NCBI RefSeq assembly: GCF_000737325.1
Contig: NZ_CP011125.1
Location: 3,100,001 to 3,164,000, forward strand
Direction: 5' to 3'
DNA length: 64,000 nucleotides
From: Sandaracinus amylolyticus
Lineage (GTDB): Bacteria > Myxococcota_A > Polyangia > Polyangiales > Sandaracinaceae
Below the pieces are notes generated by a model. It worked only from the letters and a program-made list of their open reading frames with translations. It was not told the DNA's origin and ran no database searches. Shown piece by piece: positions 54,489 through 57,965 of this stretch; positions within the stretch are counted from its first letter, which is position 1, and each line of letters starts with the position of its first letter. A program made the position numbers and the translations under genes.

Positions 54489-54517
54489 TCGGTCGAACGT
54501 TGGTATGTTGCGCCCCG

Positions 54518-55900
54518 GTGAGCGTCGGTGAGCGTCGGGGTTGGGTCGCGCTGGTCGCGGCCGTCGTGATCGCGAGCGCGGCATCGAGCGCGCGTGCGGA
54601 CGGGCCCTACGAGGGCGATTGGCGCGCCGGGCCGATGCGCATCGACGTGCAGGTCGAGAGCTGGGGCGGCGACTGCGGGCCGCGTCCGGAGTCGACGACC
54701 GTGCCGGGCGGATCGACGGTCCACGTCACGCAGTCGGGCGACGATCTGACGTTCCAGGGGCGTCCCGCGCGCAGCACGCGCGGATGCTGGAGCGAGAACG
54801 CGTCGGTGCGGCGCGTGTCGTCGAGCTTCCAGGCGGGCACGTGGCGGATCGTGTGCCGCACGCCCGACGACGATCCGCGCGCCGAGACCGGGCAGTACAC
54901 GCTTCGCGCGGAGGGCACCGAGCGCATCGAGTTCCGCGACGTGAGCCGCTACGACTGGCAGCTCAACGAGTCGTCGTGCCGCGCGACGATCACGTCGACG
55001 CAGACGTTCGAGCGCGTCGGCGGCGCGAGCCCGACACCGGAGCCCGAGCCGATGCCGACTCCGACGCCCGAGCCGGAGCGCGAGCCCGCGTGCACGCCGG
55101 GCGCACCGGCGCGGATCTCGCTGCGCCCGGCGCAGTCGACGCTCGAGCCGGGCGGACGCGTGTGCCTGAGCGCGCGTGTCGTCGATGCGAACGGGTGCGC
55201 GATCCGCGGGCGATCGCCGCGGCTTGAGCTCCGTACGCCGCCGGGCGCGACGGGCCAGCTGCGCGGGACGTGCTTCGAGGCGGCAGCGAGCGCGGCGGAG
55301 GGCGAAGGCGAGTTCACGATCGTCGCGCGCGACGGAGCGATGGAGGCCCAGGTGCGCGTGCAGGTGCGCACGCCGGATCTCTCGGACCTCATCGCGCGTC
55401 GAGCCGAGGGCGGCGGCGCCGTGACGCTCGGCGATGCGGAGAGCACGTCGGAAGAAGCCGCGCGCGTTGCGGCGCGGAGCGAAGGCGCTGCGCGCGGGAC
55501 GCCGGCGTGGCTCGTCGCGGGCGCCGTGCTCGGGCTCGTCATGGTCGTCGTGGCGAGCATCGGGCTGGTCGTGGTCGGGCGGCGCCGCAGGAAGAAGAAG
55601 GAGCGACCGATCGTCGCGAGCGAGGTGCACGAGGCGCCCGTCGCGCCCGTGCCGGCGCCGGTCCCGCCGCCTCCGCCGGTCGCGAGCGGAGAGCCGAAGA
55701 TCTGCCCGACGTGTCGCCGCGGATATCCGCCCGACGCGACGACGTGCTCGGTCGACGGGACGCCGCTCGTCGCCTACGCGGACTTCGCCGCGGGCAAGGC
55801 CGCGAGCACCGCCGCGAGCGAGAAGATCTGCCCGGTCTGCGGCACTCGATATCCGGCCTCGACCCGCTTCTGCGGCAAGGACGGGACGACCCTGAGCTGA
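54518..55900 (+). CDS. Membrane-spanning protein: exported domains plus two cytoplasmic zinc ribbons
   Basis: The 460-residue product starts at GTG 54518 with a signal peptide, followed by a Cys-containing beta domain (about 30-175), a Pro/Glu-rich linker (PTPEPEPMPTPTPEPE), an Ig-like domain (about 195-295), one membrane helix (AWLVAGAVLGLVMVVVASIG, about 330-355), a basic stop-transfer run (RRRRKKKE) and two zinc ribbons: CPTCRRGYPPDATTCSVDG and CPVCGTRYPASTRFCGKDG. Both ribbons lie on the cytoplasmic side by topology. Next door is an AgmX/GltJ-like protein, also with a cytoplasmic zinc ribbon. No known function; a signalling or scaffolding role across the inner membrane is inferred. Confidence 0.75.
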   Translation: MSVGERRGWVALVAAVVIASAASSARADGPYEGDWRAGPMRIDVQVESWGGDCGPRPESTTVPGGSTVHVTQSGDDLTFQGRPARSTRGCWSENASVRRVSSSFQAGTWRIVCRTPDDDPRAETGQYTLRAEGTERIEFRDVSRYDWQLNESSCRATITSTQTFERVGGASPTPEPEPMPTPTPEPEREPACTPGAPARISLRPAQSTLEPGGRVCLSARVVDANGCAIRGRSPRLELRTPPGATGQLRGTCFEAAASAAEGEGEFTIVARDGAMEAQVRVQVRTPDLSDLIARRAEGGGAVTLGDAESTSEEAARVAARSEGAARGTPAWLVAGAVLGLVMVVVASIGLVVVGRRRRKKKERPIVASEVHEAPVAPVPAPVPPPPPVASGEPKICPTCRRGYPPDATTCSVDGTPLVAYADFAAGKAASTAASEKICPVCGTRYPASTRFCGKDGTTLS

Positions 55901-55901
55901 C

Positions 55902-55937
55902 ATCGCGCTGAGGCGCGATCGCTACACCCAAGGGTGT
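55902..55937 (+). terminator. Two small hairpins after the zinc-ribbon membrane protein
   Basis: Perfect stems atcgcgc-tgag-gcgcgat (55902-55919) and acaccc-aa-gggtgt (55924-55937) follow the stop by 1 bp. No T-run is present. They may terminate the 54518 gene or separate it from the AgmX-like gene. Confidence 0.45.
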
Positions 55938-56102
55938 GCGCGTCGTCGGTTCTATCAGGCCGAACGAGATGTGAGCCGAGCTTGATCGGCGCGTCGCGAG
56001 ACGGGTATCCTCGCACGCGCTTTCGGGCCGCTCCGCTATCGTTCCGAGCTGTTTTGTCGCTCGGGGGACCAGGCCATTCGACCGATCGAGGGGATCACCG
56101 AG

Positions 56103-57965
56103 ATGAAAATCGTCTGCGACAGCTGTGGCGCCAAGTACTCGATTGCCGACGAGAAGGTGGCAGGCCGGGTCTTCAAGATCCGGTGCAAGAAGTGCGGCGC
56201 GGCGATCGTCGTGCGCGGTGATCAGTCGTCGTCGCAGGAGAGCGCGGCCGCGGGTGGAGCGGCGCCCGCCGGCAACTTCGACTACGGCGGCGAGGCCGTG
56301 TGGCACGTGGTCGTCGAGGGCGAGCAGCAGGGCCCGTTCTCGCCCGCGCAGCTCGGCCAGATGATCTCGGCGAACACGATCGCGTGGGACGCGTACGTGT
56401 GGCGCGAGGGCTACGACGACTGGAAGCCGGCGCAGGACATCGAGGAGCTCGTCCAGGCGATCATGAACCCGGGCGGCGGCGCCGCGGGTGGCGGTGAGGC
56501 GGCGGCGAGTGACGATCCGTTCGCCGAGGCCGCCGCGGCGCCCGCGAGCAAGCCGGCGCCGGCGGCGTCGTCGGGCTCGGATGCAGGCGCGGATCTCTTC
56601 GCGCAGAGCGAGTCGGCGAGCCCGTTCGGCGGTGGAAGCCCGTTCGGTGGCGGTGGTGACGACGACGACGTGGTCGCGTCGGCGCCGAGCCCGCGGGTGA
56701 GCGCGAACCAGGCGATGACCGGCGCGCGCAACGAGAACTCGGTGCTGTTCTCGCTCTCGAACCTGCAGGCGCTCGCGACCGGCGGCTCGAGCCCCGGGGC
56801 GTCGACCAGCTCGTCGTCGAGCGCGGCGAAGTCGTCCTCGTCGTCGGCGGCCGCGGCGCGGCCGGGGATGGCGGCGGGCGAGGGCTCGGGCCTGATCGAC
56901 ATCCGCGCGCTCGCGAGCGCGACCGGTGTCGCGGGCGGCGGTGCGGCGACGGGCGGGATCGCGCCCGCGGCGTCGCCGGCGCGCGTCGATGATCTCCTCA
57001 GCATCGGTACGGCTTCGCCGGGTCTCGGGTCGGCGCTCGGCGCGCCGGTGATCATCCCCGAGAAGAAGGAAGAGGGCGGCGGCAAGGGCCTGGTGATCGG
57101 CATGTCGATCCTGGGCGGCTGCATCCTCGTGGCGGCGATCGCGATCGTCGTCGTGATGTCGAACCAGCCCGACCCCGCGACGATCGCGGCGGCCGACACG
57201 GCGGCTGCGGGCGCGCTCGCGCCGGGTGCGACGGCGGCCGCGCCGGGCGCGACGGCGGTGCCCGGCACGACGGCCGTTCCGGGGACCGCCGCGCCGACGC
57301 CTGCGACGGGCACCGAAGTCGCGGCGGCAGCGGGTGGGACGACGGGCGGGACGACCGCGCCGGCGGCGCCCGCGACCGGCACCTCGGGCGCCACGGCGCG
57401 CGAGGAAGAGGGCAGCAGCGAGGGCCGCAGCGGTGGCGGCAGCGGTCGTCGTCGTGAGCGCGGCGCCTCGGGCTCGTCGGGCGGCGGCAGTGAGCCGGCG
57501 GCTGCGAGCAGCGGCGGCGGCGGCTCGTCGGGCGGCAGCGCGGCGTCGGGTGGCTCGTCGTCGGGCAGCCGCAGCGGTGGCGGCGGTGGCGGCGGCAGCG
57601 ACATCGACAGCCTGCTCCAGGGCGCGCTCGGCGGCAGCGGCGGTGGCGGCCGTAGCGGCGGTGGCGGTGGCAGTGGTGGTGGCGGCGGTGACTCGTCGCT
57701 CCCGCAGACCCCGTCGCGTGACGACGTCGTGCGCGCGATGGGCAGCGTGCAGAGCGCGGTCGCGGCGTGCGGCGGCGGTCAGCACGGCACCGCGACGGTC
57801 GCGATCTCGGTCGCGGGCACGTCGGGTCGCGTGACGAACGCGACGGTCGGCGGTCAGTTCGCGGGCACGCCGGTCGGCTCGTGCATCGCGCGTGCGGTGC
57901 GTGGCGCGTCGTTCCCGCGCTTCCAGCGCGCGACGTTCACGATCAACTATCCGTTCCGCCTCTGA
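56103..57965 (+). CDS. AgmX/GltJ-like protein: zinc ribbon, GYF domain, TonB-like C-terminus
   Basis: The 620-residue product starts MKIVCDSCGAKYSIADEKVA with an MJ0042-type zinc ribbon (CDSC...CKKC, residues 5-32), then a GYF-type domain (WHVVVEGEQQGPFSPAQLGQ to about 117), a long Ala/Ser/Gly/Pro-rich linker, one membrane helix (about 330-354), a Gly/Ser-rich periplasmic stretch, and a C-terminal TonB-like AgmX domain (about 530-620, GTATVAISVAGTSGRVTNAT). In Myxococcus the GltJ/AgmX protein of the gliding motor has this order and its zinc ribbon and GYF domains bind regulators. The homologue here may serve motility or another envelope motor. Confidence 0.85.
   Translation: MKIVCDSCGAKYSIADEKVAGRVFKIRCKKCGAAIVVRGDQSSSQESAAAGGAAPAGNFDYGGEAVWHVVVEGEQQGPFSPAQLGQMISANTIAWDAYVWREGYDDWKPAQDIEELVQAIMNPGGGAAGGGEAAASDDPFAEAAAAPASKPAPAASSGSDAGADLFAQSESASPFGGGSPFGGGGDDDDVVASAPSPRVSANQAMTGARNENSVLFSLSNLQALATGGSSPGASTSSSSSAAKSSSSSAAAARPGMAAGEGSGLIDIRALASATGVAGGGAATGGIAPAASPARVDDLLSIGTASPGLGSALGAPVIIPEKKEEGGGKGLVIGMSILGGCILVAAIAIVVVMSNQPDPATIAAADTAAAGALAPGATAAAPGATAVPGTTAVPGTAAPTPATGTEVAAAAGGTTGGTTAPAAPATGTSGATAREEEGSSEGRSGGGSGRRRERGASGSSGGGSEPAAASSGGGGSSGGSAASGGSSSGSRSGGGGGGGSDIDSLLQGALGGSGGGGRSGGGGGSGGGGGDSSLPQTPSRDDVVRAMGSVQSAVAACGGGQHGTATVAISVAGTSGRVTNATVGGQFAGTPVGSCIARAVRGASFPRFQRATFTINYPFRL

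Follow-up and report, generated by a model that had tools for sequence, protein, structure and literature searches.

We analysed a 64,000-nucleotide window (positions 3100001-3164000) of the Sandaracinus amylolyticus genome, a single contig of 10.33 Mb. Two neighbouring genes were studied, which follow etfB and etfA in the window. The first encodes a membrane protein that we call P1 and the second, P2, a protein resembling GltJ (AgmX) of Myxococcus xanthus. An initial annotation had described them as two adjacent inner-membrane proteins exposing zinc ribbons to the cytoplasm. Both open reading frames (ORFs) were recovered at the annotated place and strand, and their domains and predicted topology agree with this description (Table 1). 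Both genes are conserved, they lie side by side and their divergence is correlated. The topologies, folds, zinc sites and disulfides given below for the two proteins are predictions from models or sequence.

Table 1. Features of the P1-P2 locus, numbered from the first nucleotide of the window
Feature	Position	Strand	Basis
TATGTT, probable -10 of P1, 8 nt before GTG	54504..54509	+	sequence, homologue comparison
P1, single-pass membrane protein of 460 aa, GTG start	54518..55900	+	ORF; matches in 150/183 order genomes
P1 signal peptide, residues ~1-28	54518..54601	+	sequence
P1 predicted calycin-like beta-barrel, residues 28-169	54599..55024	+	AlphaFold, fold matches, conservation
P1 Ig-like domain (Big_2/LigA type), residues 193-286	55094..55375	+	structure matches
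P1 transmembrane helix, residues 330-354, then basic stretch	55505..55579	+	prediction
P1 zinc ribbon 1, CPTC-x10-CSVD, residues 396-413	55703..55756	+	
P1 zinc ribbon 2, CPVC-x10-CGKD, residues 438-455, invariant ribbon among homologues	55829..55882	+	
ACACCCAAGGGTGT inverted repeat, P1-P2 gap	55924..55937	.	core ACCCAAGG in 10/61 gaps, 0.2 expected in shuffles
Promoter-like TTGATC-N18-TATCCT before P2	55982..56011	+	sequence pattern
P2, 620-aa GltJ/AgmX-like protein	56103..57965	+	ORF, profile matches
P2 MJ0042-type zinc ribbon, residues 1-37	56103..56213	+	profile; 7zok match E 4e-8
P2 GYF_2 domain, residues 67-116	56301..56450	+	Pfam; 7z3c match E 6e-5
P2 transmembrane helix, residues 329-351	57087..57155	+	sequence
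P2 C-terminal AgmX/PglI-type (GltG/GltJ tail) domain, residues 561-620	57783..57962	+	NF033768

The N-terminal domain of P1, modelled alone with AlphaFold, is an antiparallel barrel (pLDDT about 95, pTM 0.87). Its best matches among solved structures are nearly all calycin-like (Z 7.8-9.4) and include FABP, CRABP, CpeS-type lyases and the sensor domain of the kinase PknI (Z 7.8). With FABP and CRABP (Z 8-9.4), the match covers the whole domain with a root-mean-square deviation (rmsd) of about 3 Å and a TM-score of about 0.4. P1 would share the predicted fold with these barrels but differs from them in being periplasmic, in having four invariant cysteines and in its low sequence identity (about 10%). 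Among 58 P1 homologues, the residues W49, C53, C90, C113, C154, C192 and D223 never change, and 57 of them keep C227. The cysteines of the barrel are probably disulfide-bonded. An acidic, proline-rich linker leads to the second domain, which belongs to the bacterial Ig-like (Big) domains on structure matches (8gyr, Z 10.9, rmsd 2.4 over 84 aligned residues; 7r3t, Z 10.7). Pfam Big_1 matches two of the 58 homologues and Big_2 one. According to net charge, the C-terminus is probably cytoplasmic in 49/58 homologues.

Both ribbons of this C-terminal tail have the form C-x2-C-x10-C-x2-D. Across homologues the form is CxxC-x(8-12)-Cxx[D/H/C], complete ribbons having D, H or C as fourth ligand. The last ribbon of the 58 homologues always keeps its three cysteines, with D (53) or C (5) at the fourth position. 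Because D and C alternate in the same column, aspartate is supported as a ligand, without proof. Two adjacent ribbons of the type described by Pfam DZR (PF12773) are present in P1, which scores 26.8 bits, just below the gathering cut-off of 27.3; DZR matches 46 of the 58 homologues at E <= 0.01, and the homologue L076 scores 30.4 bits. Hanks kinases of myxobacteria carry DZR and Zn_Ribbon_1 (PF13240) ribbons at their N-terminus. Those of P1 are of the same type, but their fourth ligand is mostly Asp or His in the family and they sit in the cytosolic tail of a protein that crosses the membrane once and has periplasmic domains. The initial annotation had given the 460-residue protein a beta domain, an Ig-like domain and two ribbons. 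This is correct for P1 of the window; however, homologues carry one to three ribbons, and "double" is therefore not a defining trait. An exact C-terminal Asn, often within -LVLLN or -LVPLN, was seen in 32/65 P1 homologues and is missing from P1 of the window.

P2 shows the domain order of GltJ, that is ribbon, GYF, transmembrane helix and AgmX/PglI tail, the tail remaining under its own cut-off. Pfam scores are 46 bits for Zn_ribbon_4 (cut-off 30) and 70 bits for GYF_2 (cut-off 26). The solved ribbon (7zok) and GYF (7z3c) domains of M. xanthus GltJ both match P2. GltG/PglI (NF033760) likewise spans the inner membrane once and has a cytosolic head for signalling and a periplasmic tail of the same kind as that of P2, but the head is an FHA domain in GltG whereas it is a ribbon plus GYF in P2.

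To describe the pairing across genomes, we collected 69 loci of the order to which Sandaracinaceae and their relatives belong, and 20 loci from outside it, and searched all their ORFs with profiles for P1, for the P2 head and for the P2 tail. A P1 match, in some cases limited to the ribbons, occurs in 150/183 genomes of the order; P1 is therefore not a chance ORF. Further families of the class also have matches, while elsewhere in the phylum they are mostly ribbon-only or divergent. No plasmid homologue of P1 was found. In 59 of the 69 order loci, the gene immediately after P1, read in the same direction, carries the P2 head; in the others, P2 is elsewhere in the locus (2), the contig ends (1) or P2 is absent (7). 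Counted by genus, 37/44 of the order have P2 directly after P1. The initial annotation had proposed a co-occurrence check, with P1 mainly away from AgmX-like genes as an outcome that would speak against its proposal; within the class, this outcome was not observed. Outside the order, P2 is adjacent in 5/9 loci of families f20, f16 and f27, and three of the other four loci end within 400 bp of P1. Besides the 37 genera of the order, four genera in other orders of the class keep the pair.

The gene upstream of P1 is less constant. In 56 loci it is EtfA (23), a divergent OmpA/TSP3 outer-membrane gene (18) or another gene (15). As the upstream gene changes between lineages, P2 appears as the constant neighbour of P1. 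Moreover, in some small genomes P1 is reduced to about 200 aa, comprising the transmembrane helix and ribbons, and P2 is still the next gene (L173-L176). The cytosolic tail is therefore the likely shared core. P1 and P2 distances are correlated (0.88), and a correlation of 0.67 persists when EtfA distances are removed (23 loci, permutation p 5e-4). This result is supporting, not decisive, because EtfA evolves slowly.

We also compared the regions upstream of both genes. A -10-like element about 12 nt ahead of the P1 start is conserved between the window (54502-54518) and homologues. The dinucleotide TA occurs at -20 to -11 before the P1 start in 32/55 homologues, as compared to 3-10 in other 10-nt bins. 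This enrichment makes it probable that P1 has a promoter of its own and that its mRNA is leaderless, an arrangement that in turn supports the GTG start codon. The P1-P2 gap measures 64-462 bp (median 236), and a pair of the form TTG[AC]-N18-20-TAnnnT is found in 48/61 gaps, with 1.6 expected in shuffles. Since this promoter-like pair recurs across gaps, P2 probably has its own promoter. A tight P1-P2 operon was rejected in view of the gap lengths and of the conserved promoter-like pair. The inverted repeat upstream of P2 (55924-55937) has the arms ACACCC and GGGTGT around AA. Elements like ACACCCAAGGGTGT are common to Sandaracinaceae, and the ACCCAAGG core is kept there and in some relatives. 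The repeat is possibly an operator.

Overall, these data lead us to propose, with middling confidence, that P1 and P2 work as a conserved unit of two inner-membrane proteins, in which P1, a receptor or anchor, is coupled via cytosolic ribbons to the GltJ-like trans-envelope protein P2. P1 would be a type I membrane protein placing its cysteine-rich barrel and Ig domain in the periplasm and sending, after one transmembrane helix, one to three zinc ribbons into the cytoplasm. P2 would have the opposite orientation, with ribbon and GYF in the cytoplasm and, beyond its transmembrane helix, a long low-complexity periplasmic stalk whose TonB-like tail could reach the cell wall or the outer membrane. 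Most likely, P1 would sense or hold something periplasmic and relay that state, through its ribbons, to P2's head in the cytosol. The pair would thereby couple the state of the envelope to a trans-envelope connection. A proline-rich cytosolic linker of P1 as ligand of the P2 GYF domain was considered and rejected as a conserved mechanism. The linker contains PVPPPPP in the protein of the window, several P1s with adjacent P2 have no proline there (L082, L092), and the median linker proline content is 0.14 with adjacent P2 and 0.13 without.

Several points weigh against a P1-P2 unit. Most loci were selected among the top-scoring P1 matches; nine of the 69 order loci have P1 without an adjacent P2, and none of the P1 loci examined in families f23, f33, f38 and f48 has one. 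The idea that P1 is an unrecognised partner of a trans-envelope machine, already put forward in the initial annotation, held in part: P1 is an undescribed neighbour of a GltJ-like gene and co-varies with it, and it often lies next to an OmpA/TSP3 outer-membrane gene, but a link to gliding or MglA was not supported. The correlation of distances may reflect EtfA, a slow control protein. The P2 tail is a weak match to myxo_SS_tail (NF033768), with 27 bits for a cut-off of 40. For the predicted calycin fold of residues 28-169, a Z of 8-9 at an rmsd of about 3 Å can correspond to a common arrangement. Because separate promoters are probable, co-expression of P1 and P2 is not guaranteed. Finally, we infer the contact between P1 and P2, the direction of signalling, the ligand, the output and the outer-membrane partner.

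No published description of P1 or of the P1-P2 pair was found in the literature searched. GltJ-like proteins have multiplied in these genomes, yet they have been studied only within gliding. If our proposal is true, a conserved partner such as P1 would give a handle on the roles of other GltJ-like modules, and ribbon-to-ribbon coupling at the inner membrane would become directly testable. Even if the mechanism is wrong, P1 still defines a new, clearly bounded protein family whose gene neighbour is fixed.

P1 relatives without P2 are often near zinc-ribbon Ser/Thr kinases, and this lead suggests another explanation. P1 could be a periplasmic sensor of Ser/Thr phospho-signalling, its ribbons recruiting zinc-ribbon Hanks kinases (or FHA or PP2C proteins) and P2 being one output among others. 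In family f48 (L163, L164, L165), all three loci with sequence upstream of P1 have a Hanks kinase gene immediately before it, in the same orientation; in L163 and L165 the kinase bears a CxxC ribbon at its N-terminus. Family f23 (L170, L171) has a gene for a kinase and one for a PP2C within 5 kb of P1, and in two order members without P2 (L081, L095) genes for an FHA protein and a PP2C lie upstream of P1. In the genome of the window, the nearest other P1-type ribbon heads a kinase (L196). The resemblance of the P1 barrel, among others, to the PknI sensor domain is also consistent with this explanation. Kinase-like ORFs are found at 6/12 outer-family P1 loci as compared to 2/65 P2-adjacent loci (Fisher p 9e-5). 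However, this test counts related loci as independent, and nearly all P2-adjacent loci have no kinase beside the pair. In addition, kinases are numerous in myxobacteria and their ribbons are common. We consider this phospho-signalling explanation unlikely. We give an equally low probability to a broader proposal, namely that P1 is the founder of a group of modular myxobacterial envelope receptors that would join a periplasmic calycin-Ig sensor, Asp-ligated ribbons and swappable ribbon-bearing outputs (the GltJ-like protein in most lineages, Hanks kinases in others).

Somewhat less likely still is that P1 and P2 belong, unrecognised, to the Agl-Glt gliding machinery, P2 being the GltJ of these bacteria and P1 a partner that answers an MglA-like GTPase. 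Since GltJ of M. xanthus is an MglA effector (PMC12288465), the GltJ analogy of the initial annotation was a reasonable way of working. P2 and GltJ (MXAN_4862; NF033761) have the same succession of MJ0042-type ribbon, GYF_2, transmembrane helix and AgmX/PglI tail, and the match of P2 to the solved GltJ ribbon and GYF also favours this explanation. A Glt-core-like cluster is found at G000:C1:4838000-4872000 (L212, L213). It contains GltC (272 bits), GltG (438 bits; the GltG-like protein at G000:C1:4853616) and tetratricopeptide repeat (TPR) proteins of 289, 1277 and 3356 aa, one of them GltE-like. As no GltJ lies inside it, any GltJ of the genome would have to be encoded elsewhere. A GltG-like protein was present in 16/16 genomes searched. 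The cluster is also partly present in another genome (G040).

In contrast, P2 differs from GltJ in being paired with P1 and in lying outside a Glt cluster: at 3.156 Mb, it is separated by about 1.7 Mb from the Glt-core-like cluster and is not encoded with other glt genes. None of the features tested links P1-P2 to that cluster, and no gliding gene is beside P1 in the loci examined. The GltJ equivalog NF033761 gives 101 bits on P2, far below the curated cut-off of 450, which was reached in none of the 282 genomes of the phylum sample. A second GltJ-like gene of the genome (G000:C1:6328949) is the better candidate overall, with 127 bits on GltJ and 48.6 bits for the solved GYF domain as compared to 25.1 for P2; on the GltJ ribbon alone, P2 is slightly ahead (35.4 versus 31.4 bits). 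P2 as the GltJ orthologue was therefore rejected, and the link to gliding and MglA drawn in the initial annotation was not supported by these comparisons; the lack of an adjacent P2 in families f23, f33, f38 and f48 also speaks against it. In a tree of ribbon, GYF and tail, the P1-linked P2s stand apart, with full support, from the group of G000:C1:6328949; interspersed with these P2s are a further group of paralogues and a single one on a long branch.

Least likely of all is that P1 and P2 are ordinary envelope proteins of one order, functionally unrelated and adjacent because their gene order was inherited: the separate promoters and the origin of most data from one order would fit, but P2 stays while upstream genes differ, even where P1 identity falls to about 26-30%, shortened P1s keep P2, and the distances co-vary beyond EtfA.

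The second GltJ-like gene has a neighbour of its own. Directly before it lies a gene with MshEN, response-regulator and TPR domains (G000:C1:6327352-6330838; L179:5353-8839), and the two are a second, different GltJ-like pair. Look-alike MshEN/response-regulator/TPR genes precede a GltJ-like gene in two further genomes (L187, L188).

The divergent OmpA neighbour of P1 was considered as TraB and rejected (168 bits for a cut-off of 700), the TSP3 plus OmpA architecture being all that is common. Within L068-L100, 18 loci have this OmpA/TSP3 gene beside P1, and in five a gene for a CAP-domain protein follows P2.

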